Of a stretch of 52,760 nucleotides of DNA, positions 1 to 52,760 are shown one piece after another; position 1 is the stretch's first letter, and each line of letters starts with the position of its first letter. Location: positions 1 to 52,760 of IMG/VR virus record IMGVR_UViG_3300025154_002798. The stretch is one strand, 5' to 3'. The position numbers were made by a program, and so were the translations under genes. This stretch comes from a virus. The notes under the pieces were generated by a model that was not told the DNA's origin, ran no database searches, and saw only the letters and a program-made list of their open reading frames with translations.

Positions 1-2337
1 ATGACAGTAAAAGAAAAATCATATATTCTACAAGAAGAAGCTCCACAATTAATGGTTTCCGACCAACAATTGGAATTGTTTCGTGATTTGGAATTAGCAA
101 AATACAACGATAGTGATTTATATAACGGCAAATCTAAAAATAAATTAAATGTAGTTTCTCTATTTACTGGTGCTGGTGGGTTAGACATAGGTTTTAAAGA
201 AGCAGGGTTTAACTGTGTATTTGCATCTGATATTATGCCTCAAGCAGAGACTACTTACAATTATAATTTTCCATCAACACCTTTCGTAAGAAAAGACGTC
301 AGGTTGCTTTCTAAGGAAGAAATAGAGAATTTGATTGGTAAAAACAAAATTGATGTGCTAATTGGTGGACCTCCTTGTCAAGGTTTCTCAAATATGGGGA
401 ATAAAAATTCATCAGACCCTAGAAATTATCTGTTTGAAAATTATGTGAAGATTGTGGAGACAATACAACCCAAATGTTTTCTTTTTGAAAATGTGAAAGG
501 ATTATTTACAATGTTTGAAGGTCGTTTTTTTGATAAAGTCGTAAATGCATTTTTAGAAATTGGTTATAATGTTTCTTACTCTATGATTGATTCGTCTAAA
601 TATGGCGTACCTCAAAAAAGGGAGAGGATAATAATTTTCGGTACTAAGATTAATAGGTCATTTAGATTCCCTAAACCAAATTCAAAATCATTTGGTAGAA
701 TAAGTGCCTTTTCAAATGTTGGTGAAGCTATAAACGATTTAATGCAACTAGAAAATAGATACCCAAATCATGTTCCATTAAATCACAATGAAATAGTTGT
801 TCAAAGATATAAACTTATCCCAGAAGGTGGAAAATTGCCAAAACCTGAGGAACTTCCTGAAGAAATTAGAAGGAAAAATTTTGGAAATACATACACAAGA
901 TTAAACAGAAAGGAAGTCTCATCAACAATAGTTCCTGGCAATAATGCTTTACCTGTTCATCCAGTTTTAAATAGGAGTTTGACAGCTCGTGAAGCTGCAA
1001 GAATTCAAACGTTTCCTGATTATTTTATTTTTAGAGGGGATAGACGTTCCCAATGTATTCTTGTTGGTAATGCTGTGCCTCCATTACTTGCAGCCAAGTT
1101 GGCAGAATGCGTTGCAAATTTTATTAATGAAATTGAATATGATGGAATAAGTCCTGATGGTCAAGCAAAAGTTGGCACTAAATTTTCTCGTCATAAAGTT
1201 AACACAGTAAAGAAAAATGGGCGTGCAAATTTAAAATTCGCTGATTTATTTAGTGGTGTTGGTGGTTTTACGCAAGGCTTAGAAGCTGCTGGACTTGAAT
1301 GTGTTTTAGGTGCAGATTTTGATGAATATGCTGTTGAAGCATATCGTAGAAACCATTCTTCCCATGAATGTTTGAAAATAGACCTAGCTGACCCTAAAAA
1401 TCAAAAGATAGTAGCTGATAGGTTGAAAAAAGAAAAAGTTGATTTAATAGTTGGAGGGCCTCCTTGTCAAGGATTTTCTATTTTTGGGAAAAGACGATTT
1501 GTAAACACAAAGAATCATGATTTAAAAAAAGACAAAAGAAACGATTTGGTGTTTGCATTTGCAAATATTGTAATAAGGTCAAATGCAAACTGGTTTATTA
1601 TGGAAAATGTTCCAGGTATTCTTTCAGCACATAGTGGTTCTTATGTTGAGGAAGTAAGAAATTATTTTTTAAAACATAAATATAAAACGGAAATAAAAAT
1701 CATAAATGCAGCAGATTATGGTGTTCCTCAGTTGAGAAAGCGCTTTATTTTGTTTGGTACTAAGACAGACCTCATGATTCCATTTCCAAAACCAAAATAT
1801 TTTGAAACACCTGAATCATGGCAACTGCCATACAGAACAGTTGGTGAAGTTTTAACTGACTTATCTAACGAAAAAACATTAGGCAAATATCAAAATCATT
1901 TTGCACCAAACCATTCTCCAATAATTGTGGAAAGATTTTCATACATAAAAGAAGGACAAAAATTGGAAATTGAATCTTTACCAGAACACTTGAAGAATGG
2001 TACTAAGACTGGCAAACCAATGGCAAACTACAGTCATGTTTTTAAACGTTTACATAGGAAAAAACCTGCTGGCACTATTGTTCCTGGTCATAATGCATTC
2101 CCTGTTCATCCAACATTAAATAGAACTTTAACTGTGAGGGAAGCTGCAAGAATTCAAACGTTTCCAGATAATTATGAATTTGTTGGTCCAATAATAAATC
2201 AATGTTTACAAGTAGGTAATGCTTTCCCTTGTTTAGTCGCTCAAATTTTTGGGGAAAGGCTTAGAACAGTAATAAATAAAGAATGGAGTGAAGAAAGTGC
2301 GACTCATTTAGCTAAATACTCAATGTTAGAAAAATAA
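1..2337 (+). CDS. Tandem double cytosine-C5 DNA methyltransferase (R-M modification subunit)
   Basis: The 778-residue protein holds two complete C5-cytosine methyltransferase domains in tandem. Domain 1 has the AdoMet motif VSLFTGAGG near residue 52, the catalytic GGPPCQG loop (Cys126), FENVKG and QKRERIIIFG. Domain 2 starts near residue 412 with FADLFSGVGG and has GGPPCQG (Cys489), MENVPG and QLRKRFILFG. Both domains keep the C-terminal AARIQTFPD and VGNAxP motifs, so both look catalytically intact. A single-domain enzyme is usually 300-450 residues. Family knowledge: such enzymes transfer a methyl group to cytosine within a specific site; paired domains often serve asymmetric sites. It is followed 4 bp later by the endonuclease gene. 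It is the only operon on the plus strand and opens at the window's first base, so the start is assumed. Confidence 0.93.
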   Translation: MTVKEKSYILQEEAPQLMVSDQQLELFRDLELAKYNDSDLYNGKSKNKLNVVSLFTGAGGLDIGFKEAGFNCVFASDIMPQAETTYNYNFPSTPFVRKDVRLLSKEEIENLIGKNKIDVLIGGPPCQGFSNMGNKNSSDPRNYLFENYVKIVETIQPKCFLFENVKGLFTMFEGRFFDKVVNAFLEIGYNVSYSMIDSSKYGVPQKRERIIIFGTKINRSFRFPKPNSKSFGRISAFSNVGEAINDLMQLENRYPNHVPLNHNEIVVQRYKLIPEGGKLPKPEELPEEIRRKNFGNTYTRLNRKEVSSTIVPGNNALPVHPVLNRSLTAREAARIQTFPDYFIFRGDRRSQCILVGNAVPPLLAAKLAECVANFINEIEYDGISPDGQAKVGTKFSRHKVNTVKKNGRANLKFADLFSGVGGFTQGLEAAGLECVLGADFDEYAVEAYRRNHSSHECLKIDLADPKNQKIVADRLKKEKVDLIVGGPPCQGFSIFGKRRFVNTKNHDLKKDKRNDLVFAFANIVIRSNANWFIMENVPGILSAHSGSYVEEVRNYFLKHKYKTEIKIINAADYGVPQLRKRFILFGTKTDLMIPFPKPKYFETPESWQLPYRTVGEVLTDLSNEKTLGKYQNHFAPNHSPIIVERFSYIKEGQKLEIESLPEHLKNGTKTGKPMANYSHVFKRLHRKKPAGTIVPGHNAFPVHPTLNRTLTVREAARIQTFPDNYEFVGPIINQCLQVGNAFPCLVAQIFGERLRTVINKEWSEESATHLAKYSMLEK

Positions 2338-2341
2338 TATT

Positions 2342-3598
2342 ATGTCAGTAAATCATCATCTTCTTGCAAAAGCAACAACTGATTCAGTTTTAGCAAATTT
2401 TAAATCAGGTGCATGGAAATGTTGCACAGATGTAGGTTTAGATTTTTATAGAGTTGGTTGTGATAGCAGTTTCCCTTCTCCTGATGCAGCCTTCTACGAT
2501 GATGCAAAAAAGTTAATGGTAACATTTGAGTTCAAGCCACCCACAGAAACTAAAAGAGGTATTTTGACGGGGTTGGGTCAATCTATTGCATATTTAAATA
2601 GTAGCAACTTGTCATACCTTATTGTGCCACAAACATTAGAGGATTATGATATTGGTGGCTACATGACAAATTTATATCAAAACCAAATTGAAGAAAGTCT
2701 ACCAGTCGGTTTAATTGTTTATGAGAACAATGCACCAACAAAAGTTTCGCTTATTCATAATGTAAATACTCTAACTAAAACAAAGGAATTTAAAGCTATA
2801 GCAAGTGGTAGGTTTTGGGCAAAACACTTAGATATGCCAATACCTTTATTTCATTTAATTCTCCATTGCTATTATTTAAAAAAAATAGGCCAAATTACTG
2901 GCGATGCATTTGCTTATTGTTGGGAAACATATTTAGTTCCAAATAGTGTTTTAAAAACATTAACTCCAACTGCAATTAAGGATATGAATGGAGATTTCAT
3001 TGAAACTTTGTCTGGAAGAAAGAATATTATCTTTTTTGAGAAGAAAATAGCAGCACTTAAAAAGTTATCTGGAGCAACTAAAGGAAAGGCTATAGCAGAC
3101 TTACGACAAGATGCTGATACATCATTTATTGGAGATAATTATTACAATTCTATTAAGAAAAATTTTGTTACATTTTTAAAACATATTGGAGTAGTTGATT
3201 CAATTGGTCATTTAACAGAGGAGGGTTTTAAACTTTATCATTTAGGCTTAGTTAATGGTCCAAACAGTAAAATATTCCAAGACTACTTTACACAAACGGT
3301 TTTAATTACTGGTCACCATTTAGATTTGATTTTTGATTTGGACAACTTATGTAATCAATTCAGGGGCAAATATGAGATTATGAAAATCAGAGAAATAATG
3401 CTGGAAGATTATGAGGCGAGAGGAATGATTAAAAGAAATCCAAATAGAAAAGCTGGTGATGAAAGTAAGGTTGAGTTTCTAAAATATGAATTTATTTTAT
3501 GGAATTCATTAAATTTAACAGTAAAGACAAATGGTACACCTGATGTTTCTTTTAATTGGAAAAAAATAACAGAAGTTTGTTCTATGCCTGATTTATAA
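2342..3598 (+). CDS. PD-(D/E)xK type II restriction endonuclease (R-M partner)
   Basis: A 418-residue protein lying 4 bp downstream of the double methyltransferase, so the two are surely co-transcribed. The N-terminal half contains SPDAAFYDD (Asp48) followed 15 residues later by FEFK (Glu63, Lys65) and LGQSIAYL (Gln80). This is the D...ExK...Q arrangement of PD-(D/E)xK nucleases. The rest (about residues 150-418) is not recognised and may bind DNA. Inferred role: cleavage of unmodified DNA at the sequence protected by the neighbouring methylase. The gene ends immediately before a long hairpin at 3601-3694. Its function as the cognate restriction enzyme rests on motif and position only; the recognition site cannot be read from sequence. 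Confidence 0.8.
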   Translation: MSVNHHLLAKATTDSVLANFKSGAWKCCTDVGLDFYRVGCDSSFPSPDAAFYDDAKKLMVTFEFKPPTETKRGILTGLGQSIAYLNSSNLSYLIVPQTLEDYDIGGYMTNLYQNQIEESLPVGLIVYENNAPTKVSLIHNVNTLTKTKEFKAIASGRFWAKHLDMPIPLFHLILHCYYLKKIGQITGDAFAYCWETYLVPNSVLKTLTPTAIKDMNGDFIETLSGRKNIIFFEKKIAALKKLSGATKGKAIADLRQDADTSFIGDNYYNSIKKNFVTFLKHIGVVDSIGHLTEEGFKLYHLGLVNGPNSKIFQDYFTQTVLITGHHLDLIFDLDNLCNQFRGKYEIMKIREIMLEDYEARGMIKRNPNRKAGDESKVEFLKYEFILWNSLNLTVKTNGTPDVSFNWKKITEVCSMPDL

Positions 3599-3600
3599 GC

Positions 3601-3694
3601 CCACGCTTCGTAGTCAAGCACATTGGCTGGTCGCACAAAAATCCAACACGCGACCAAAACCAGCCAAAGAGCTTGCCTACCCAAACGCACGTGG
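3601..3694. repeat. Long imperfect palindrome after the R-M operon
   Basis: The arms pair as CCACG/CGTGG, GTAG/CTAC, CAAGC/GCTTG, TTGGCTGG/CCAGCCAA and GGTCGC/GCGACC. The pairs are separated by short bulges, with a loop at about 3634-3650. It begins 3 bp after the endonuclease stop codon. It could act as the R-M operon terminator, although there is no T-run. It could also be a further recombination-site-like hairpin, because bulged bases on one arm resemble integron attC folding. The rest of the gap to the next site (3695-3743) shows nothing recognisable. Confidence 0.6.
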
Positions 3695-3743
3695 AAACAT
3701 TGCAGCAAATTGACAGATAAAATGATAAAAATAAAAATCGCCA

Positions 3744-3880
3744 GTGCCTAACAAGCGGTCATAAAACATTGGGGGTTAAGTGGTTAATCGAGCGTTCTAC
3801 CTCGCATCAAGGTTCGGTATCGGGGGATACATTCGCAGCTCCGAAAACCCCAACGTTTCATACCGCCGTCCGTTATAGGC
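3744..3880. repeat. attC-like cassette junction A (long class)
   Basis: The outer cores are GTGCCTAAC (3744-3752) and GTTATAGGC (3872-3880). Inside them the arms AGCGGT/ACCGC, AAAC/GTTT and TTGGGG/CCCCAA pair across a loop. The loop carries a stretch (about 3776-3845: GTGGTTAATC, then TCGCATC, GTTCGGTATCGG and GCTCCG) that recurs in site C. Read on the minus strand, the stop codon of the 92-aa gene falls inside the first core, as is typical for integron cassettes. The cores differ from each other, but each matches the far end of its own unit: 3744 matches 52636-52644 and 3872 matches 4169-4177. Confidence 0.7.
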
Positions 3881-4151
3881 AATACGGTTTGGTGCATTTA
3901 ATAAACTTTGGTTTTTTGTTCAAATAAATGAATTCGTTCCACCAACCAGTACAAGGTAATATCCAATATTGAAAACTATACCATTGGTAGGTTTTTGTTT
4001 TCCCCCCAGTTCCTCTTGATGCTATATTACCATCTGCCATTAAATCGAAACTATGTAATGTATAGTTTTCAATTCGCTTCTCAGTACATTTTGTAAGTCG
4101 AACAAAAAACCACTGAAAGAAAAATACGTTTACTGCTTTTAATTTAGTCAT
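3873..4151 (-). CDS. Cassette gene, 92-aa protein of unknown function
   Basis: No family is recognised for this 92-residue product. It is rich in aromatic residues (WFF, YQWYSFQYW, GWWNEF) with several Lys and Cys and no clear membrane span. The main support is position. The start lies 18 bp after the GTTATAGGC core of site B (minus-strand reading) and the stop lies inside the core of site A, the exact layout of an integron-type cassette. The leader AATTTTAACGATATG resembles the one in front of the RtcB gene (TTAATTTTACGATATG), suggesting a shared translation signal. It could be a spurious frame in a non-coding cassette. Confidence 0.5.
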   Translation of the reverse strand: MTKLKAVNVFFFQWFFVRLTKCTEKRIENYTLHSFDLMADGNIASRGTGGKTKTYQWYSFQYWILPCTGWWNEFIYLNKKPKFIKCTKPYCL

Positions 4152-4168
4152 ATCGTTAAAATTGCACT

Positions 4169-4303
4169 GCCTATAACAACAAATATAAAACAGCAGGGCA
4201 GTATTACTGAATTATAATGTGTGCTACTATTCATCATTTGTGGTCGGCTGATAGGGTTTTGCACTTAATCCCTGCCGTTTCATATTTGCAGCCGTTACCT
4301 GCA
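4169..4303. repeat. attC-like cassette junction B (long class)
   Basis: The cores are GCCTATAAC (4169-4177) and GTTACCTGC (4295-4303). The arms CAAATATAAAACAGCAGGG and CCCTGCCGTTTCATATTTG are nearly perfect inverted copies flanking a loop of about 65 bp. Length is 135 bp, the same as sites A and C. On the minus strand the RtcB stop codon lies 22 bp before the core and the next gene starts 18 bp after the site. Confidence 0.72.
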
Positions 4304-4325
4304 AGTGTAAGAAACTGCACAGCCA

Positions 4326-5510
4326 TTAATGAGCCTTGAAATTATAGAGTGGTTTAATCACTCCGATAATATCAACGGTTTCAGTAATTGCAGATTTAAT
4401 TTCATCAATTGATTTATAAGCCTGTGGAGCTTCATCCAAAGTTTCAGTAACAACCGAAGTTGTATAAACATCTTTCATTGTTTCAACAAAATCAGCCATA
4501 TTAATAGCTTCTTTTGCTTTGCTTCGGCTCATTAATCTACCTGCTCCATGAGGTGCTGAATAGTTCCAGTTTTCATTTCCTTTGCCAATACACAATAAAG
4601 AACCATCACGCATATTAATTGGAATAAGCAATGTTTCCCCATTTTCAGCAGAAACCGCACCTTTTCTCAAAATCATGCGTTTAAAATCAATGTAGTTGTG
4701 TATTGTTTCAAATCGTTCAGCTTCTTGCAAACCAGCTTCTTTTAAAATAATTTCAGCCATTGTTTCACGGTTCAAAGTCGCAAATTTTTGAACAATAGCC
4801 ATATCATTCATATAGTCGGCAAAGTTATTACCAGTTAAAAAGGCTAAATCCTTATCGGTTACAGGCTTTTTAATCTTCTTAATTTCGGCTGCAATTTCTT
4901 TTTCTCTACCTTCTGCTTTTAGTTTGTCAATTGCATTTTTAACAACTTTGCTCATTTCATTGGCATTTTGAAAGGCTTTATCTTGGTAATACTTACAAGT
5001 ATCACCGCCTAATTTTCGGCTTCCTGAATGTATAATCAAATACAGTTCGCCAGTTATTTCATGTTTGCCGACTTCAATAAAATGGTTTCCACCACCAAGC
5101 GAACCAATTGAAAGCACTGCACGGCTTAAATTAACGTGTTTTTCACAGCGTAAATTTGTAAAGTCGAAATCTTTCTTTGATTTTTCGTGAACACTAAAAC
5201 CACAAGGCACTTTAGTTTTAATTACTTCGTCCAGTTTTTCAAAGTCAATTTCTTTGTTTTTGAGCTTAATTGTAAGCATTCCGCAACCAATATCAACACC
5301 TACCAAATTTGGAGTTACTTTGTCGGTTATAGTTATTGTTGTACCAACTGTACAACCTTTACCAGCGTGTGCATCAGGCATAATTCGCACATTTGCATTT
5401 TCATACGCTTCAAAGTTTACCAGTTTTTTAATTTGGTCATACGCTTCAAATTCAAATGTTTCAGCGAATATTAGCGTTTCAATTCCTTTGTTATTTTTAA
5501 TCGTTTTCAT
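4326..5510 (-). CDS. rtcB: RtcB-family RNA ligase (short form)
   Basis: The 394-residue protein carries the RtcB signatures in order: MPDAHAGKG (44-52), the metal site GVDIGCG (Asp73, Cys76), GGGNHF (His143), IHSGSR (His161), HN (His271) and APHGAGR, whose His321 would take GMP. Family knowledge: RtcB uses GTP and Mn to join RNA 2',3'-cyclic phosphate or 3'-phosphate ends to 5'-OH ends in tRNA or damaged-RNA repair. All key residues are present, so activity is plausible. It is one unit of the cassette series, bounded by inverted 9-mers GTTACCTGC/GCAGGTAAC in sites B and C. In a phage context, repair of tRNAs cut by host anticodon nucleases is a reasonable inference. Confidence 0.92.
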   Translation of the reverse strand: MKTIKNNKGIETLIFAETFEFEAYDQIKKLVNFEAYENANVRIMPDAHAGKGCTVGTTITITDKVTPNLVGVDIGCGMLTIKLKNKEIDFEKLDEVIKTKVPCGFSVHEKSKKDFDFTNLRCEKHVNLSRAVLSIGSLGGGNHFIEVGKHEITGELYLIIHSGSRKLGGDTCKYYQDKAFQNANEMSKVVKNAIDKLKAEGREKEIAAEIKKIKKPVTDKDLAFLTGNNFADYMNDMAIVQKFATLNRETMAEIILKEAGLQEAERFETIHNYIDFKRMILRKGAVSAENGETLLIPINMRDGSLLCIGKGNENWNYSAPHGAGRLMSRSKAKEAINMADFVETMKDVYTTSVVTETLDEAPQAYKSIDEIKSAITETVDIIGVIKPLYNFKAH

Positions 5511-5551
5511 ATCGTAAAATTAAGAATATTAATAAATTAGTACAAACACCA

Positions 5552-5685
5552 GCAGGTAACACAAGCTATAACCAATAAAGGTTTTAGTGGTTAATCAAAC
5601 GTTGTAGCTCGCATCCAGTTCGGTATCGGTTGATAGTGCATCGCTCCGTAATCCTTTACTGGTAATAGCCACAAACGTTACCTGC
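5552..5685. repeat. attC-like cassette junction C (long class)
   Basis: The cores are perfect inverted 9-mers GCAGGTAAC (5552-5560) and GTTACCTGC (5677-5685). The inner arms AGCTATAACCAATAAAGG and CCTTTACTGGTAATAGCC pair with few mismatches. The central loop (about 5583-5650: GTGGTTAATC, TCGCATCCAG, TTCGGTATCGG, GCTCCGTAA) is clearly homologous to the loop of site A, so these are members of one repeat family rather than chance terminators. Read on the minus strand, the stop of the upstream 96-aa gene is 3 bp before the core. Confidence 0.75.
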
Positions 5686-5688
5686 AAT

Positions 5689-5982
5689 TTATTTTACCCC
5701 ACGCTCCTTCTGCATTTGTTCCAGTCGTTCTTGAAATCGGCTTTTCTTGCCTACCTCTGTAAAGTTTTTAATTTCGCTCTTGTTTTTAACTGCGAACACA
5801 GCACTTGCAATAAACATCAATAGTGCTACTCCTGCACATATTAAAATCATCCAAACGCTCCACCAATTAAAAACTTTGTCCTTCACCAAGTAGAGTATAA
5901 ATTCTACTATCGCCCAAATTGATGATGCTACTGCTCCTAAGTAGGCAAGAAAAGCCGTTACTCCTGTTAATATTGTTTTCAT
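5689..5982 (-). CDS. Cassette gene, small two-helix membrane protein
   Basis: A 97-residue product with two hydrophobic helices (about residues 5-34 and 42-64) and a highly charged C-terminal tail (KSRFQERLEQMQKERG). It is likely an inner-membrane protein with a cytoplasmic basic tail. No family is recognised. It fills the unit between sites C and D. The unit's edges are GTTACCTG and CAGGTAAC, and the stop codon abuts the site C core. A frame shifted by one base from 5867 to 6055 is a shadow of this gene. Confidence 0.68.
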   Translation of the reverse strand: MKTILTGVTAFLAYLGAVASSIWAIVEFILYLVKDKVFNWWSVWMILICAGVALLMFIASAVFAVKNKSEIKNFTEVGKKSRFQERLEQMQKERGVK

Positions 5983-6022
5983 TTTTAAATTTGTTTAATG
6001 CCTCCCTTAGTAAAATAAACTG

Positions 6023-6123
6023 ACAGGTAACAAGGGCTTGGCAAAATGCCACCAATCAGCTTTGTGCCTTGAATTTTATCGGTTGCTTGGTGGCACTATC
6101 GCCAAGCCCCGTCCGTTATAGCC
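6023..6123. repeat. attC-like cassette junction D
   Basis: The cores are ACAGGTAAC (6023-6031) and GTTATAGCC (6115-6123). Two perfect stems lie between them: GGGCTTGGC/GCCAAGCCC and TGCCACCAA/TTGGTGGCA. They are separated by unpaired bases that differ in number on the two arms, a feature of attC folding. Length is 101 bp, shorter than A-C, and the loop sequence is different. Minus-strand reading places the 82-aa gene's stop codon 2 bp before the core. Confidence 0.75.
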
Positions 6124-6125
6124 AA

Positions 6126-6374
6126 TTAAAAAATCCACATCGCATTATCAATTGCAGCTCGATGACAAATTGAACAGGCTACACTTCCGCTTTTAACTGA
6201 TTTATAATTATCATCATACCATATACCAGCTTCTTTTATATCTTCAAAAAAATACTGTTTATCAAAAGCTTCGTAAACCATAGCATTTTCATTACATACA
6301 TGGTCAGTTGGTTCGCCTCCGCACATTATTGCAGTAGATTCGCCTAAGTCTATTATTTTACATCCTTGTCTCAT
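6126..6374 (-). CDS. Cassette gene, 82-aa Cys-rich protein
   Basis: A short acidic protein with five cysteines, including C-x8-C near residues 18-27 and a CxxCH pair near the C-terminus, so it may bind zinc. No family is recognised. The stop lies 2 bp from the core of site D and the start 5 bp after the core-like GGTTATAGC of site E, leaving almost no leader. It is one unit of the minus-strand cassette series. Confidence 0.6.
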   Translation of the reverse strand: MRQGCKIIDLGESTAIMCGGEPTDHVCNENAMVYEAFDKQYFFEDIKEAGIWYDDNYKSVKSGSVACSICHRAAIDNAMWIF

Positions 6375-6379
6375 TTATT

Positions 6380-6440
6380 GGTTATAGCTTCATCGTTAGT
6401 AGCAAGGCAAAGACGCTCCGATTGAACGTCCGTGCCAAGC
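6380..6440. repeat. attC-like cassette junction E (short class)
   Basis: A short site whose hairpin GCAAGGCAAAGACG/CGTCCGTGCCAAGC surrounds an 11-base loop (6402-6440). The same 40-bp element occurs at 41304-41343 with 36 of 40 bases identical. The core next to the 82-aa gene reads GGTTATAGC where the unit's other end (GTTATAGCC at 6115) predicts GGCTATAAC. In other words the palindromic-centred octamer appears inverted here. Confidence 0.6.
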
Positions 6441-6449
6441 ATTTAGATT

Positions 6450-6572
6450 TTAGTCTGTGATAATTGACAATTGTCCACAGGCTGCGCCATTTTCAATCTC
6501 ACTTTGAGTTGCTACGGCAACGGCAAAATCATAGCCGTTTTCTTCTAATTGACTTTTAATTTGTTCAGTCAT
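6450..6572 (-). pseudogene. Out-of-frame C-terminal fragment of the RlmN-like radical SAM gene
   Basis: Forty codons that end in NGAACGQL followed by a short tail. AACGQL is the conserved motif around the C-terminal catalytic cysteine of RlmN-type methyltransferases, which the upstream 260-residue protein lacks. A TTAAA tandem duplication at 6584-6593 shifts the frame. Removing one 5-bp copy reads straight through and gives a single protein of about 303 residues. The stop lies next to the hairpin of site E, so the full gene would fit the cassette as the others do. Confidence 0.7.
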
Positions 6573-6583
6573 TGCTTTATGTA

Positions 6584-7366
6584 TTAAATTAAATTAATTC
6601 CCTCTACTACTCCACTTCCAAGCCCATTCTTTTCAGAAGTAGTATTCGGGTTTATTGGGCTTATTTTTATGAAAAATTTATCTTTATCAAAATGTTGTTT
6701 AATCTTTTTAATATCAAAGTCTTTTTCTTCTACCAGCGTTAAGTTTATGGTAGTTTTCAAATTGCTTTCGGTTCTTACATTTCCAAGTTGCTCAATGGTC
6801 ATTTTGTTTTTGAATGGTATTAGCCAATTCCTATGCTCTTCATCCAAGCTATGCAAAGAAAGTTGCAGCGTCAGATTGTCTTTTATCCAAGTAAAATCAG
6901 CATCTTTCAAACCAATAGTTGAAATATAGTGGTGTGTATTTGGGTAGTGTTGGCTTATTTTTTCAATTGCCTTTTTTACGTTTTCAATATTTAAAAACGG
7001 TTCTCCCATTCGGGTATAGTTTATTTTAAACTCTTTACTATCCAATGGGTTTATGTTGTTTTTAGCAATTATAAACTCAACTTGGGTTGTAATTTCTTGC
7101 CAAGTCAAATTACGCCAACTTTTCATTTGTCCAGTTGCACAAAATTTGCATCTTACAGGGCATCCACTCATTACGCTTACTCCAACCATCCAGCGTTCCG
7201 AACGGTCGCTTAATTCGTAATTGTCTAGCATATTTTGCTTTCTACCTATTGCATCTTTTGTATAGTAAGGTAAAAAAGTATCGGTAGTTTCAATTAACAT
7301 TCCGTCCTCTAATTCGAGGCAATAAACGCTACCGTTTTTAAAGTTCTTTTGTTTTTTAATTTTCAT
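6584..7366 (-). CDS. RlmN-like radical SAM protein, frameshifted (N-terminal part)
   Basis: A 260-residue radical SAM protein with the CxxxCxxC iron-sulfur motif at Cys69, Cys73 and Cys76 (GCPVRCKFCATGQ). It also has TRMGEPFLN, an RlmN/Cfr-family signature, then LQLSLHS and KISPINPNTTSE. RlmN and Cfr methylate adenine 2503 of 23S rRNA and need a second catalytic cysteine near the C-terminus. Here translation stops before it. The missing segment with AACGQL lies directly downstream in another frame (6450-6572). As written the enzyme should be inactive unless frameshifting or slippage restores it. At about 303 residues even the repaired form is shorter than RlmN (350-390), so the substrate could differ. 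It is a cassette unit between sites E and F. Confidence 0.85.
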   Translation of the reverse strand: MKIKKQKNFKNGSVYCLELEDGMLIETTDTFLPYYTKDAIGRKQNMLDNYELSDRSERWMVGVSVMSGCPVRCKFCATGQMKSWRNLTWQEITTQVEFIIAKNNINPLDSKEFKINYTRMGEPFLNIENVKKAIEKISQHYPNTHHYISTIGLKDADFTWIKDNLTLQLSLHSLDEEHRNWLIPFKNKMTIEQLGNVRTESNLKTTINLTLVEEKDFDIKKIKQHFDKDKFFIKISPINPNTTSEKNGLGSGVVEGINLI

Positions 7367-7412
7367 TGTATCAATATTTTAAGATTAATAATAAAAACAA
7401 TGGCACTTGGTT

Positions 7413-7504
7413 TCCTAACCGATGGCTTGTCAAACACTGTATCTTATTTTCATAAGCGAAACTTGTACAGGCAAAGCCACTGTTCTTATTCTAAACCGTT
7501 AGCC
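7413..7504. repeat. attC-like cassette junction F (right end of first cluster)
   Basis: The cores are TCCTAAC (7413-7419) and GTTAGCC (7498-7504), with inner arms TGGCTT/AAGCCA and short flanking pairs. Pairing is weaker than in sites A-D. On the minus strand the stop of the 96-aa gene at 7517 lies 12 bp before the core. That gene is therefore either the last cassette gene or the first phage gene. The surrounding gap (7367-7516) holds nothing else. Confidence 0.5.
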
Positions 7505-7516
7505 TAACCGCTACCG

Positions 7517-36175: not shown

Positions 36176-36238
36176 TTAAAAACAAGTGCGAAATTGCTCC
36201 GCACTTGTAAAATCCGAAAACATCACTAAACGGATTTT
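36176..36238 (-). terminator. Tandem terminators of the helicase-ParB-GNAT-PAPS operon
   Basis: The first hairpin read on the minus strand is AAAATCCG/CGGATTTT (36231-36238 with 36209-36216), which overlaps the stop codon. The second is a perfect 9-bp stem ACAAGTGCG/CGCACTTGT (36200-36208 with 36182-36190) followed by TTTTTAAT. The latter is a strong intrinsic terminator. Confidence 0.8.
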
Positions 36239-37376
36239 ATAATGTTTCTGTCCATTTTTTAATTATTTCGTCTGACTTTCTTAAATAGTTTTTTTCTTTT
36301 AATTGTTCAGGGGTATAATTCACATTTTCGCCAAATGTCCATTTTTTACTCGTAATATTTCCTTCCCAATCACATAATAGTATTCTTTTAACTTGATATT
36401 TAAAACAATCATCGTCGTTAATATGTTGTAATCTTGTCCACATCCATTTAAACACCTTAGATAATTCAGGGTTAATACTTTCTAATAAAAAATCTCTATA
36501 TTCTTTCCAATTTTTAAAATTTTGTGGTAGTTTTTTAATAGAATAAATTAAATTTTCTTTACCATAAATAGCAGCCGTGTGAACTCCATGTAATCGTTCT
36601 TCTAATTTATCGTATGTTTCAGGTTCTAATTCTTGTAAATCAGTTAAACATCTAAAAGCCTTTTCGTGTATTAAATTAGAAACTCTAAAATATCTTAAAT
36701 TTCCACCAATCATATACATTTTGTCGTATATTTTATTATACTTAAAATTATTATCAATTATATATTTCCAAACATCTGTATATCTCCAGTCAATTAATGG
36801 ATAAGCTCTATGTGGCTCATTTTTTCGTCTTAACCAAAATAAATTACTATCCTCACCAAACATTACAAAATTTCTATCTGGGCTTTCTTCTGCTCTTAAT
36901 CCAATTATTGAAACACTTTTACCTTCTAATTTACGAAGATTTTGACCTACCCACAAATTAAATTTATGAAATCTTTTAGGATATTTATTTTCTATTTTGT
37001 GAATTGCAATAGGGTGTTTTTCTCTAACCCATTTTTCTTCTTCACCCCAAGCCCATAAAAATAACTGTTGATGACTTGCTGCGTTTGTCATAAAAATAGC
37101 AACTTGATACCATAATGGAATTACATTTGGTTGCGTCATTGCCCATTCCATAAAATCAATTGTGCCTTGATATTCGGCTTCTTGGTCTTGAAAATAAAGA
37201 ATAAACTTTCTATTTCTTTTTTTCGCCTCTTCGTTTACTAAATGAAATAATGCTGTACTATCTTTACCACCTGAAAATGATAAAGAAATATTATCATAAT
37301 TATCGAATAAAAACGATATTCTTTTTAGAGTTGATTCTAATACATTTTCAATACCTCTTATTGATGTTCTTCCCAT
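36237..37376 (-). CDS. IbrA-like phosphoadenosine phosphosulfate reductase-family protein
   Basis: A 379-residue protein with the PP-loop SFSGGKDSTALFHL (SGGKDS at 35-40), then FILYFQDQEAEY and AYPLIDWRYTDVWKYI, as in the PAPS-reductase/IbrA (DUF3440) group. Classical members reduce PAPS; related phage and island proteins such as IbrA pair with ParB-like IbrB and are not sulfur-assimilation enzymes. Its gene is last in a tight operon with SNF2 helicase, ParB-like and GNAT genes. A role in nucleic acid modification, perhaps sulfur or adenylation chemistry, is an inference. It overlaps the GNAT gene by 19 bp. Confidence 0.85.
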   Translation of the reverse strand: MGRTSIRGIENVLESTLKRISFLFDNYDNISLSFSGGKDSTALFHLVNEEAKKRNRKFILYFQDQEAEYQGTIDFMEWAMTQPNVIPLWYQVAIFMTNAASHQQLFLWAWGEEEKWVREKHPIAIHKIENKYPKRFHKFNLWVGQNLRKLEGKSVSIIGLRAEESPDRNFVMFGEDSNLFWLRRKNEPHRAYPLIDWRYTDVWKYIIDNNFKYNKIYDKMYMIGGNLRYFRVSNLIHEKAFRCLTDLQELEPETYDKLEERLHGVHTAAIYGKENLIYSIKKLPQNFKNWKEYRDFLLESINPELSKVFKWMWTRLQHINDDDCFKYQVKRILLCDWEGNITSKKWTFGENVNYTPEQLKEKNYLRKSDEIIKKWTETL

Positions 37377-40681: not shown

Positions 40682-41020
40682 TTAAAATGGTGGTAATCCG
40701 TCATCAACTACTTCGTTTTGTACTTCAATAGCTTTTTGAACGTCTTTTTTGCCTTTAGATACGATTTTCCACCCGACTAGATTAACGTAATGATTGCCTT
40801 TGTATTCGCTACCTCTGATATTTATGCTTATCTGAACATCTTCGTCAAGGCTGTACGAATTTAGCAATTTAACAGAATCTTGTACAAATTCGATTTTTAT
40901 TTCTTGCGGATATTTTTCATCTGTTTTAACGACTAATTCCCGTTTTAAAAATCCTTTTGTTCCGATTTCTTGCGTTTCGTTTAGCTTTATGATTTTTCCA
41001 TTAATTACAATTTCAGACAT
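40682..41020 (-). CDS. Single-stranded DNA-binding-like protein (DUF3127 family)
   Basis: A 112-residue OB-fold-like protein: IVINGKIIKLNETQEIGTKGFLKRELVVKTDEKYPQEIKIEF, YKGNHYVNLVGWKI, and an acidic hydrophobic tip DDGLPPF like the SSB protein-interaction tail. The DUF3127 family is typical of Bacteroidetes and is placed next to replication genes. It would bind ssDNA during phage replication. The tip is a good sign of a real SSB role. Confidence 0.78.
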   Translation of the reverse strand: MSEIVINGKIIKLNETQEIGTKGFLKRELVVKTDEKYPQEIKIEFVQDSVKLLNSYSLDEDVQISINIRGSEYKGNHYVNLVGWKIVSKGKKDVQKAIEVQNEVVDDGLPPF

Positions 41021-41024
41021 AGTT

Positions 41025-41153
41025 TTACTCGTTTAATTTTATATATTCAAGCATTTCTTTTAATGCTTTAGACTTGTTAAAGTTACGTTTTTTCTCATAA
41101 AAAGCAATTCTTTTTTCAAGAAATTTTATTAGTTCTTTTTTCGATGGTTTCAT
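41025..41153 (-). CDS. Small basic helical protein, 42 aa
   Basis: MKPSKKELIKFLEKRIAFY then KKRNFNKSKALKEMLEYIK. It is helical and Lys-rich. It ends 4 bp before the SSB-like gene. The ATG overlaps a TGA that ends a 27-codon frame at 41150-41233. Function unknown. Confidence 0.55.
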   Translation of the reverse strand: MKPSKKELIKFLEKRIAFYEKKRNFNKSKALKEMLEYIKLNE

Positions 41154-41233
41154 TTTAGAGTTGAAATTTGTATGTGATCAGCTTCTTTAAATTGCCACTT
41201 TAATTGTACCGTCTTCGTTATTTTAAATTCCAC
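41150..41233 (-). CDS. Short, possibly 5'-truncated phage frame, 27 aa (GTG start)
   Basis: VEFKITKTVQLKWQFKEADH and a short end. The stop overlaps the next ATG (ATGA), suggesting a real gene end. The segment K-x7-K-W-x-x-K-x-x-D resembles the start of the 75-aa gene at 52362 (KHIKIKWLIKDVD). An in-frame stop lies just before the GTG, so the gene may have lost its front when the cassette cluster inserted at 41.3 kb. Confidence 0.35.
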   Translation of the reverse strand: MEFKITKTVQLKWQFKEADHIQISTLK

Positions 41234-41271
41234 TTACGAACATTATGTTATTGATTATTAATTATATGATG

Positions 41272-41362
41272 TTTGGTAACCATTCGGCAACCAACTTGTT
41301 ATAAGCAAGGCAAAGACACTCCGAATAAACGTCCGTGCCAAACTTAAATTAGTCGTTATAAG
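41272..41362. repeat. attC-like junction G (short class) plus shared flank
   Basis: It contains GTTATAAGC at 41298, the short-class hairpin (41304-41343, 36 of 40 bases identical to 6401-6440) and the core GTTATAAG (41355-41362) that carries the last codons of the 226-aa gene. The flank 41272-41301 matches 52610-52639 at 25 of 30 bases (CAACCAACTTGTTA identical). Both cassette loci are therefore bounded by the same sequence. Confidence 0.6.
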
Positions 41363-42029
41363 TTGACCATTCAGTTTCAATATTTCCCAAATCACATTCA
41401 ATAGTACAACCCATTGCATATAATTTGAAAAGAAATAAATCAAACCCCCTTAATCCTATTTCAGTTATAGGATGCAATGCAGCTCCTTCGATTGTTGGAG
41501 AATATAAGCTTTTTGATTTCCCGTCAATCATTAATTTATACCTGCACTGGTATCTGTGCGTTTTCTTTTCCGCGCTTTCATCAAATGCTATATGAATAGT
41601 GCCATAATCTGAAACTTCATGGATAAAGGCAATTTCTCCGCTTTCACCGTATTCGTCAGGTATTACTTCCTCTTCTTTATATTTTTCAATAATTTCAGAA
41701 AGTTTCCATTCTTTCTTTTCTAAAGCACCAACAAAGTTTTTAATCATTTCTTTAGCTGGTGCAATTCCGATTTCAACAACACTTTTGTTTAATTCAAATT
41801 CTACTAAATCGGTAAGCGTTTTTGAATACTGAACAAAATCGAGTTTTTCAAAACCTTCAATTATTTTAGCATTCAATTTTTCTTTGAACGACTTATTTAC
41901 ATCGCTCCAACTTGAAAGGGAATCATTTATAATTCCATTAATAAAACCAGTAACTTGTTTTGTTACAATTTCATCAAGTTTACCGTTTTCGGTAAGTTCT
42001 TTAATTTTGTCACTAATCAATTTTTCCAT
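41349..42029 (-). CDS. Cassette gene, 226-aa protein of unknown function
   Basis: Residues 1-120 are helical (MEKLISDKIKELTENGKLDEIV; AKEMIKNFVGALEKKEW). Residues 120-226 are mixed alpha/beta with HRYQCRYKLMIDGKSKSLYSPTI. No family recognised. The stop codon lies 4 bp inside junction G, and the 8-mers GTTATAAG and CTTATAAC at 41355 and 42079 form the unit's inverted ends. It interrupts the phage replication region, so it is cargo rather than a phage gene. Confidence 0.7.
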   Translation of the reverse strand: MEKLISDKIKELTENGKLDEIVTKQVTGFINGIINDSLSSWSDVNKSFKEKLNAKIIEGFEKLDFVQYSKTLTDLVEFELNKSVVEIGIAPAKEMIKNFVGALEKKEWKLSEIIEKYKEEEVIPDEYGESGEIAFIHEVSDYGTIHIAFDESAEKKTHRYQCRYKLMIDGKSKSLYSPTIEGAALHPITEIGLRGFDLFLFKLYAMGCTIECDLGNIETEWSTYND

Positions 42030-42077
42030 TTTTTTTAAGTGTTTATGTATTAATAATTTGACTGATAATTAAACCCT

Positions 42078-42210
42078 GCTTATAACTTCGGCTAACCCGG
42101 CAAGTCAGGCAACCGTGGTTTCCGATCGGTGCAGCCCGTGTTAACTTTCGCTCTGATAGGAAAGTGAATCGCTTCGCACCCTGCCCTGCGTGTAGCCTTT
42201 AATGTTAGGC
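42078..42210. repeat. attC-like junction H (long class)
   Basis: Cores GCTTATAAC (42078-42086) and GTTAGGC (42204-42210), 133 bp apart, the same spacing as sites A-C. Inner arms GGCTA/TAGCC, CAGGCA/TGCCCTG and GGTGC/GCACC pair with bulges, less perfectly than elsewhere. GTTAGGC is the canonical integron 1R consensus (GTTRRRY). The 58-aa gene stops 6 bp before it. Confidence 0.55.
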
Positions 42211-42216
42211 TTCATG

Positions 42217-42393
42217 CTAAGAGCGCTCTTCGAACAATTTGCAGGAATCATTATCTTCAACAACTCCTGTGTAATTGTCACAATCTTTATCGTTACTAAA
42301 CTCAATATCGCACTGGTTATTCATGCAATATCTATCTTCAGGCTCTGAAAACATCAATTCTGAGTGTTTACAGTTTTTACAAATTCTTTCCAT
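42217..42393 (-). CDS. Cassette gene, 58-aa Cys-rich protein
   Basis: MERICKNCKHSELMFSEPED, then two more cysteine groups (YCMNNQC, DC, SC). CxxC pairs suggest zinc binding. No family is recognised. It ends next to junction H. The stretch before its start (42394-42492) has no clear cassette core, so the right edge of this second cluster is uncertain. Confidence 0.55.
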   Translation of the reverse strand: MERICKNCKHSELMFSEPEDRYCMNNQCDIEFSNDKDCDNYTGVVEDNDSCKLFEERS

Positions 42394-42492
42394 TTTCTTT
42401 ATGCTATTAGTTTAATAATCTGAAACAAAGCACGAAACGCCAATACTCAACCGTTACCATAAAACTACACACAATTTCACAATCATTCAAAT

Positions 42493-42915: not shown

Positions 42916-44784
42916 TTAAAATGGTGCTGGTTCGTTGTTTGTGAAATAATTATCTGATACGGTCGCTTTGCCTTGACAATCAAACTCATAATTATCTTTT
43001 ACTTGGCTTTCTATTTGCATTGGCATTTCTGATTGAGAATATTCGTTATCTAAAACACTTTTATATATAATGTTTCCTAGTTCGTTTACGTTTTCAGTTT
43101 GAAATTCGTGGTCTAAATATCTACCCGAATTTTTATCCCACTCAAAATAACAATGTTCATTATTTTTACCTAAATGCGAAAATTTACATTTTAATACTTT
43201 TATTTTAACTTTATGAGCTTCATAATCTCTGTGTACAAGCAATCCATGCGGGAGCATATCGTACATTTCTCCACCTCCTTTTATGTCATACATATTTGGC
43301 TCATATGATTTACCTTCAAGATTAGACGGCTTTCTTGGGTGTGCAACTAAAATAATCAATATATCATATTTTCTTGCAAAATTATCTAGTTCTATTAAAT
43401 AATCATTTGTATATTCAGTTATATTTTTATTGAGACTATCTTTAAGTCTAACTTTATTATAAGGGTCAATGACTAATACTTTTATTCCAAACCTTTTTAT
43501 TAACATTTTAGTCTTTTCTAATACAAATTTTAAATCATAATTCTCTAAATCTATAAATTTAAAATTATTATGAATTAAATCAAAAGCATCTGCATATTGT
43601 GATGTTTGTAATAAATATTTACTATTTATCCATTTTCCGCAAATTTTCGATATTAATTTCCCTGCGTGTATTTCGTTAGGTTTATTTTCAGGGCTTGCAT
43701 ACGCTGTTTTCCAATTGTATAAAGCATTATATCCTAAACACATTTGGTCAACAAAATCGCTCTTGCCCGATGAAGGCACGCCTGTTATGCCTATTACTTG
43801 ACCTGTATAAGTTGTGAATATATTATCAAATCCATCAAGTCCTATTCGGAATCCTTTTTGCATTCCGTTTATTAGATAATTTTCAAAACTTTCTTTCCAG
43901 TCTCCTACGGAACTAACTCCGTCTATTGGAACTTCTTTTGCATTTTCTAATATTATGCTTAAAGAACTTTTGCCATATTTAACGAGATATTCGTTTGCAT
44001 CTTTGCAGTCTTTGAAATCGACTAAAAAACATTTTTCTGAACCAAATCTGCGAATAAATTCGGTTGTGGTAACTTGTCCAGCTTCGTCATTATCAATCGC
44101 TAAATAAATTTTTTCTTTGTTTTCAAAATAATCAATACAGTTGTCTAAATATTCTAAATTTGGATTTTTTAATGTTGAACCATTTGGGACTGAAATAACA
44201 TTATCAATATCGCATTCTATAAATGAAAGGACATCAATTTCCCCTTCGCAAATTATACATTCTTTTGAATATTTTATTGCATTTAAATTATAAAATATCT
44301 TTTCGGCATCTTTAATTAGTTTAAATCCTTTTTCTCCGGTCCTAAACTTACAATTTATTAGCTCATTGTCTCGAAAGTAAGGAAATTGAATAGTATTCAT
44401 TTCTCGCCAATCATTATTCTTTTTCGATGGCATTATTTCAATTCCTTCGCAAATTTTCATTTGCCTTAATGTTTGTTGTGATATTTTTCTTCTTTCAAAC
44501 CATTTTACAACATTTTCTGATAATTCGGTATTGTTTTTCCACGTAGGTTTTGAGAATATTTTTACAATTGTATTTTCTCGTTTTTTAAACGTATGTAGTT
44601 GAAATATTTCGTTGCAATGAAAACACTTACCTAAACCAGTTTCCCAATTTAATTTTGCACATTTATCATTTTTCTTTTTACGATTATGCGAACATAAAGG
44701 ACAAATGCTTTCTTTGGCATTTTCTTGTAATCCGTAAAAATTGTACTTGTCAATTGTAAATCCATTAATCTCCATAAGGTACAT
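42916..44784 (-). CDS. Primase-helicase (zinc finger, TOPRIM and DnaB-type ATPase; Twinkle/T7 gp4-like)
   Basis: The 622-residue protein has a zinc ribbon (Cys28, Cys31, Cys54, Cys57) and TOPRIM motifs CEGEIDVLSF near 180 and YLAIDNDEAGQ near 230. The RecA-like helicase core has Walker A GVPSSGKSDF near 340, Walker B VLVIDPYN near 450 and ILVAHPRKP. It would prime and unwind DNA at the replication fork, the main replisome component. Start could also be MEINGFTIDKY at 44775, which overlaps the previous gene by only 11 bp. Downstream it is followed by small accessory genes. Confidence 0.92.
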   Translation of the reverse strand: MYLMEINGFTIDKYNFYGLQENAKESICPLCSHNRKKKNDKCAKLNWETGLGKCFHCNEIFQLHTFKKRENTIVKIFSKPTWKNNTELSENVVKWFERRKISQQTLRQMKICEGIEIMPSKKNNDWREMNTIQFPYFRDNELINCKFRTGEKGFKLIKDAEKIFYNLNAIKYSKECIICEGEIDVLSFIECDIDNVISVPNGSTLKNPNLEYLDNCIDYFENKEKIYLAIDNDEAGQVTTTEFIRRFGSEKCFLVDFKDCKDANEYLVKYGKSSLSIILENAKEVPIDGVSSVGDWKESFENYLINGMQKGFRIGLDGFDNIFTTYTGQVIGITGVPSSGKSDFVDQMCLGYNALYNWKTAYASPENKPNEIHAGKLISKICGKWINSKYLLQTSQYADAFDLIHNNFKFIDLENYDLKFVLEKTKMLIKRFGIKVLVIDPYNKVRLKDSLNKNITEYTNDYLIELDNFARKYDILIILVAHPRKPSNLEGKSYEPNMYDIKGGGEMYDMLPHGLLVHRDYEAHKVKIKVLKCKFSHLGKNNEHCYFEWDKNSGRYLDHEFQTENVNELGNIIYKSVLDNEYSQSEMPMQIESQVKDNYEFDCQGKATVSDNYFTNNEPAPF

Positions 44785-52361: not shown

Positions 52362-52589
52362 TTAAAACGGTAGTATTTCTCGCTCAGGTTTAAAAAGCAT
52401 CGGTTTTAATTTAGTCAACGAAATAAACGTTTTTCCAAACCAATAACCAATACATCTATTATTATAAGATTGCTTTATTTGCCTATCGGTTTTTAAATTA
52501 TATAGCAAATTATCGTTTCCAAATCCATAGCCGTCAACATCTTTTATTAACCATTTTATTTTTATATGTTTTTCAATAGATAATTTCAT
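52362..52589 (-). CDS. Small NUMOD4-like or phage-specific protein, 75 aa
   Basis: I use the start at 52589 (MKLSIEKHIKIKWLIKDVDG). The upstream 48 residues in the same frame are low-quality sequence over the cassette flank. The pattern W-x-I-K-D-x-D-G-Y-G-F-G-x-D...YNLKTDRQIKQS...GYWFGKTFISLTKLKPM resembles short phage proteins with a NUMOD4-like repeat. Function unknown, possibly DNA-associated. Confidence 0.6.
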   Translation of the reverse strand: MKLSIEKHIKIKWLIKDVDGYGFGNDNLLYNLKTDRQIKQSYNNRCIGYWFGKTFISLTKLKPMLFKPEREILPF

Positions 52590-52760
52590 TGATACTGAAT
52601 TGTTTATGACTTGGTAAACTTTCAACAACCAACTTGTTAGGCACAAGCGGGTACGATAAACGACCGTAGATAATTTTGCTGCAAAAAGACAAGAAAATGG
52701 AAACAGCCGACCCACAAAACAGCACATTTGCAAACCGCTCCAGCCGACACAAAACCAAAG
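52590..52760. other. Right edge: cassette boundary core and probable R-M leader
   Basis: It holds GTTAGGCAC (52636-52644), the exact inverse of GTGCCTAAC at 3744-3752. The flank 52610-52639 is shared with 41272-41301. AGCCGAC occurs twice, near 52708 and 52743. The last bases (CACAAAACCAAAG) would sit directly in front of the ATG at position 1 if the molecule is circular. No gene was recognised here. Confidence 0.5.

Follow-up and report, generated by a model that had tools for sequence, protein, structure and literature searches.

Cassette swapping at fixed joints in phages of marine bacteria suggests docking sites for host integron machinery

Introduction

Gene cassettes of integrons are commonly regarded as belonging to bacteria, with plasmids and transposons as their vehicles. 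Both phage CALINs and non-classical attG insertion sites are already known. In the accessible part of their report, Qi et al. 2023 (PMC9892861) describe phage arrays that lack intI and carry methyltransferase cassettes, as do the arrays analyzed here. The same part of the report includes P12002L, a published CALIN phage in which one attC site is active with IntI1, and the only phage attI that it names belongs to a prophage and is of the Shewanella type. Cassettes can also enter off-target or secondary sites, which are degenerate (PMC10127599), as are attG sites (PMC12901181).

Here we examine a virus record from IMG/VR, 52,760 bases long (the whole stretch is called the window below), that carries two cassette clusters. 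An initial annotation had noticed that the two clusters begin behind similar flanks, and proposed that cassettes enter at a specific site next to a particular gene type, comparable to an attI. We compared the window with Polaribacter phages P12002L and P12002S, with Cellulophaga phages, and with Bacteroidota chromosomes.

Results

A phage genome with two cassette clusters

The replication, packaging and head genes of the window match phage families, and nearly all of its genes run leftward. Bacteroidota chromosomes contain relatives of its attC types, and its host is therefore probably a member of this phylum; no integrase of this host was identified. Searches with the primase, the capsid protein and phage DNA returned neither close nor insert-free relatives of the phage, and no empty site. 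The best primase relatives are ∼52% identical, and these phages have almost nothing else in common with the window. The phage also has a gene of the phosphoadenosine-phosphosulfate-reductase type (36237-37376; phrog_2302).

The record conforms to a CALIN, in that it carries at least two attC sites with no integron integrase nearby. Four attC-like sites at 3744-6123 have scan scores of 19.5 to 26.3 and a fifth (42078-42212) scores 14.7, on a scan in which shuffled windows give two to five hits over 14.5. The fold z value of single-stranded DNA is near −4 in three of the five. Phage_integrase had no match in the window, in the record of another cassette-bearing phage (L016), or in P12002L and P12002S. 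The window is not a complete integron, since it lacks intI beside an attI and its flanks are unlike the attI sites of the host group.

Cluster 2 was originally placed, as 226-aa and 58-aa ORFs, between an SSB-like gene and a primase-helicase operon, and gene family matches bear this out: the neighbors are a DUF3127/SSB-family gene (40682-41020) and the primase-helicase operon (42916-44784; phrog_239). Its first cassette, k1 (41299-42204, minus strand), has a head hairpin at about 41302-41340, an antisense 226-aa gene (41349-42029, minus strand) and an attC at 42078-42212. The gene matches phrog_2600, a family with no assigned function (E 2.5e-33), and its protein has no relative among viral contigs. 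The attC (plus strand) is of the long class, with R″ box CTTATAAC, R′ box G^TTAGGC and a cut at 42204^42205. By score alone (14.7) this site does not rise above the shuffle background, and its DNA fold alone is weak (z −1.4); an attC of its type lies at 6437-6570 in L016. The second cassette, k2 (42205-42453, minus strand), carries an antisense 58-aa gene (42217-42393) and the tail GCCAAT-ACTCAACC-G^TTACC with a damaged attC. It is this tail, with damage to both its R″ box and its stem, that forms the right edge of the cluster (about 42394-42453). The tail aligns, up to the R″ box, with that of a 66-aa cassette in L016, and the right junction is probably at 42453^42454. Of the short- and long-class sites that had been said to bound this cluster, the long one is an attC-type site related to that of L016, whereas the short one is a cassette-head hairpin and no attC.

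Cluster 1 appears to span the ends of the record, which would close on itself. GTTAGGCAC at 52636 is complementary to GTGCCTAAC at 3744, and each occurs once in the window. Cassette c1 starts at 52637-52760 (plus strand, TTAGGCAC...) and continues from window base 1 to 3872, ending in an attC at 3744-3880 (cut 3872^3873; DNA fold z −4.0). It holds two sense genes, a fused double C5 cytosine methyltransferase (1-2337) and a 418-aa possible restriction enzyme of type II (2342-3598; PADLOC REase_II, E 1.4e-6); here as elsewhere, cassette gene functions are assigned by family match only. The remaining cassettes lie on the minus strand. They are c2 (3873-4294), with an antisense 92-aa gene and an attC at 4169-4302; c3 (4295-5677), with an antisense RtcB-family gene at 4326-5510 and an attC at 5552-5685 (score 25.1); c4 (5678-6115), with an antisense 97-aa membrane-type gene and an attC at 6023-6123 (score 26.3, fold z −4.0); c5 (6116-6395), with an antisense 82-aa gene and no clear attC; and c6 (6396-7506), with a head hairpin at 6395-6438 and an attC-like right end at 7405-7506. 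The RtcB assignment in c3 is by DNA similarity, and the attC of c3 has relatives in Bacteroidota chromosomes; RtcB is an RNA ligase family, present here as a phage cassette. Cassette c6 includes an antisense gene with a Radical_SAM match (6584-7366) and a frame for a 40-aa peptide (6452-6574), which is perhaps the precursor of a modified peptide.

Cassette boundaries fall at G^TT, where cassettes common to the window, L016 and another phage stretch, L017, all start. The c6 proteins are 97% and 93% identical in L016 (2043-3046), and the radical-SAM cassette starts at G^TTAGTAGC in both phages, behind different attC sites. Cassette orientation is therefore given by recombination breakpoints and not by the palindromes alone. 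Sense orientation of a gene relative to its attC is typical of cassettes, though not strictly required, and it is not the rule in the window: genes are antisense to attC in seven of the eight window cassettes versus 4 of 40 on chromosomes (Fisher p 3e-5). The chromosomal set comprises 17 integron loci (36 sense and 4 antisense), and its attC orientation counts come from a simple purpose-written scanner, not from IntegronFinder.

A conserved hairpin, GGCAAAGACGCTCCGATTGAACGTCCGTGCC, occurs in the window at 6395-6438 and 41298-41341, and in L017 at 1619 and 2130. The k1 copy is 89% identical to that at 6395-6438. The hairpin sits just after G^TT at the head of some cassettes only, and these carry different genes (in L016 and L017). 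It lies 3′ of the antisense gene, and in L017 also before a methyltransferase gene; it is perhaps a terminator.

The two left flanks are alike up to the cassette junction

The flank similarity that had been reported between 41272-41301 and 52610-52639 is confirmed, with 25 of 30 bases identical. No other 30-mer match in the window exceeds 19 of 30, and across 200 shuffled windows the highest value is 23 of 30. The likeness extends over ∼60 bp at 72% identity (the 41239-41298 region versus 52580-52639), fading upstream into the start of a small gene. Both flanks end in CAACCAACTTG^TTA, with different cassettes beyond. The G^TT cut points, at 41298^41299 and 52636^52637, refine the earlier boundary: on the cassette side, identity is at background (5/20 right after TTA). 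We propose the flank of cluster 2 (41239-41298, plus strand) as an attI-like docking site, and that of cluster 1 (52577-52636, plus strand) as a second one. Both contain a TTGGTAA box (41273-41279 and 52611-52617), which is also present in the flanks of P12002L and P12002S.

The frames adjoining the two flanks had been described as similar at the N terminus, and when aligned from the start codon they are indeed alike (VEFKITKTVQLKWQFKEADH versus MKLSIEKHIKIKWLIKDVDG). The flank similarity therefore continues into the first part of a small gene with two paralogous copies. One is a 75-aa gene (52362-52589, minus strand) whose leader carries the docking site, and which matches neither Pfam nor PHROG at E 0.01 and has no significant homologue in phages or in 395 Bacteroidota genomes. 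The other is a 27-codon frame with a GTG start (41150-41233, minus strand), a truncated paralogue of the 75-aa gene with no PHROG match.

We considered whether the flank might be an attC remnant and rejected this, as it is too short, has no L boxes and does not fold significantly. The exact flank pattern has no match in IMG/VR. A degenerate pattern gives nine matches there, and those inspected resemble coding sequence and have no cassette array; TTGGTAA-TTGTT matches in two further stretches (L006 and L087) likewise look like coding sequence.

Because the flanks are paralogous over 60 bp, an old insertion followed by duplication could explain part of this pattern, and the window by itself does not distinguish such an event from a specific site. 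That the window site accepted cassettes repeatedly is something we infer from its two copies.

Different cassettes follow one joint in sister phages

P12002L and P12002S have a 65-bp flank in common, and different cassettes start exactly at its G^TT. To the left of this junction at site B, the two phages are 99.7% identical, and from G^TT onward their cassettes differ. The right junction also lies exactly at G^TT, with complete identity beyond it and five to eight of 10 bases matching before it. In P12002L the 65-bp element occurs twice, in identical copies that are sharply bounded on both sides, each at a cassette cluster. The copy at site A lacks the gene that accompanies the element, and cassettes still stand behind it. 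At cluster A (L098 and L144), the methyltransferase cassettes common to P12002L and P12002S stand in changed order, which points to reshuffling of cassettes in lytic phages. Among 395 genomes, the P12002L element has only short, partial, AT-rich matches that end before the junction.

The same arrangement is found in four Cellulophaga baltica phages, phi18:3, phi46:3, phi19:3 and phi13:2 (L145, L156, L157 and L158), in which one leader ending in ATTG^TT is followed by four different first cassettes. Repeated acceptance of different cassettes at a fixed junction is thus seen directly in P12002L/S and in these four phages. Next to the cassette site, the Cellulophaga phages have retained a tyrosine recombinase together with one small gene. 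As a candidate integrase, this recombinase was rejected: it has a weak XerD score and falls below E 0.01 significance with the integron-integrase model. The flank in L017 differs, ending in TAG^TTG; the nearest terminase relatives of L017 (68-69% identical) end at the same stop codon, as might be expected of an empty site.

The flank sequences differ between phage groups. Most sites occupy the leader of a small leftward gene, and the type of this gene is not constant. Immediately before the cut, TTG is present in five of six independent phage flanks, compared with 16% of G^TT sites (p 6e-4). Taken together, the window, P12002L, P12002S and the L016 stretch contain 1119 TTG^TT sites. A TTGGTAA box lies 15-29 bp upstream of just five of them, each at the flank of a cassette cluster (two in the window, three in the P12002 phages). 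These five come from two lineages and therefore represent few independent events.

Entry at a specific site, as proposed for the window, is in our assessment well supported, through the shared 65-bp flank of P12002L/S, the Cellulophaga leader and the turnover that begins at G^TT. The association with a particular gene type has fared less well: the small gene at one P12002 site (site B) is marginally similar to the window 75-aa type (BLASTP E 0.003), and the other sites precede unrelated small genes or none. The initial annotation had also stated that its proposal would be refuted if the similarity belonged to a larger duplicated phage gene region present without cassettes. This is half so, in that the window similarity enters the paralogous gene, whereas the 65-bp element of P12002L is duplicated without its gene.

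Phage flanks do not match the chromosomal attI consensus

From 15 Bacteroidota loci we derived the attI consensus GATAATNATATG^TTA, which is mostly ∼200-230 bp from intI. With the position weight matrix from these loci, the window flanks score −9.6 and −6.6, versus mostly 6 to 15 for attI sites, and the flank in L016 is likewise at background. An integron integrase scores above the curated cut-off in 105 of 395 sampled Bacteroidota genomes, about a quarter.

Discussion

The joints of these sister phages of marine bacteria stay fixed while the cassettes are swapped, and the joints seem to be docking sites for host integron machinery. The window and its counterparts have attC-type sites, exact junctions and, in the sister phages, turnover from a fixed G^TT, with no tyrosine recombinase in the window or in P12002L/S. 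We consider it likely that both window clusters are cassette arrays loaded at phage docking sites by an integron integrase acting in trans. The docking sites would be short double-stranded sequences ending in TTG^TT, read on the strand opposite to phage transcription and placed, as a rule, within the leader of a small gene that runs leftward. Recombination would take place at G^TT between such a site and the bottom strand of the attC in a circular cassette, and the left flank would therefore remain constant while the cassettes that follow it are gained, exchanged or lost. Phage transcription would favor cassettes with genes antisense to attC, since these alone are transcribed in the direction of the operon. 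An empty window site would then have the form ...CAACCAACTTGTT followed by the right flank. The enzyme is presumably IntI, supplied by the host or by a co-resident element, the box at about −20 may contribute, and the window site was probably used more than once.

Other histories could place cassettes behind similar flanks. Cassettes might have been inserted once, long ago, before a small gene, with later duplication of the gene start, leader and array and homologous recombination between phages. The ∼60-bp likeness that reaches into the gene start, together with the truncated copy at 41150-41233, is what such a history would leave. However, the first cassettes of the two clusters are wholly different from the same base on, and homologous recombination would scatter breakpoints, whereas the P12002 and Cellulophaga changes start at G^TT repeatedly; we regard this account as improbable. 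Nor do we favor the view that the flank is simply a conserved leader that regulates the small gene as a promoter or operator, with cassettes residing where a break in the operon is tolerated. The location of most sites in leaders of small leftward genes fits this view, but site A of P12002L has cassettes behind a 65-bp element that lacks its gene, and the probability that we give to it is low.

It is also conceivable, though on balance unlikely, that insertion occurs nonspecifically at any G^TT, in the manner of attG, and that featureless flanks survive only because insertion there is harmless. Variation of the flanks between phage groups would be expected from this, as would the degeneracy reported for secondary and attG sites (PMC10127599; PMC12901181). 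Against it stand the excess of TTG before the cut, the restriction of the box to cluster flanks, the reuse of one position in sister phages and the presence of cassettes at both copies of the 65-bp element. Loading at docking sites by an integrase in trans is the reading that we prefer. A more far-reaching version of it is that Bacteroidota phages evolved or domesticated docking sites and multiplied them as a discrete element, loading, swapping and reordering cassettes (often DNA methyltransferases) by means of the host integrase, with reverse-oriented cassettes being selected because they suit phage transcription. Such systems would be integrons divided between virus and host. We offer this version tentatively, and hold it to be somewhat less probable than even.

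If fixed docking with cassette turnover takes place, phages without an integrase would be regular users and carriers of cassettes. It would also explain how phage methyltransferases and other accessory genes are refreshed. The P12002L and P12002S pair offers a ready test system.

Among known systems, the chromosomal attI sites of Bacteroidota have the same G^TT cut and the same position relative to the first cassette as the phage flanks, which do not match their consensus. The phage sites are therefore attI-like in use, and not attI by sequence; the comparison with attI that had been made for the window stands for function and fails for sequence. In the accessible part of PMC9892861, P12002L is not compared with P12002S, and these phages are described with neither a second cluster behind the same flank nor a docking site. 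The attG sites of Loot et al. 2024, as cited in PMC12901181, take up cassettes at G^TT away from attI and in divergent sequence, as here. The window and Cellulophaga flanks fit an attG-type insertion site in position and cut, assuming an integron integrase as the enzyme, and sites of this type appear to be the nearest known class. The phage sites differ from attG in being conserved within phage groups, in being reused, in carrying multi-cassette arrays and, in one case, in forming a duplicated 65-bp element. What looks new is the conservation of docking sites in phages together with the turnover of cassettes at them.
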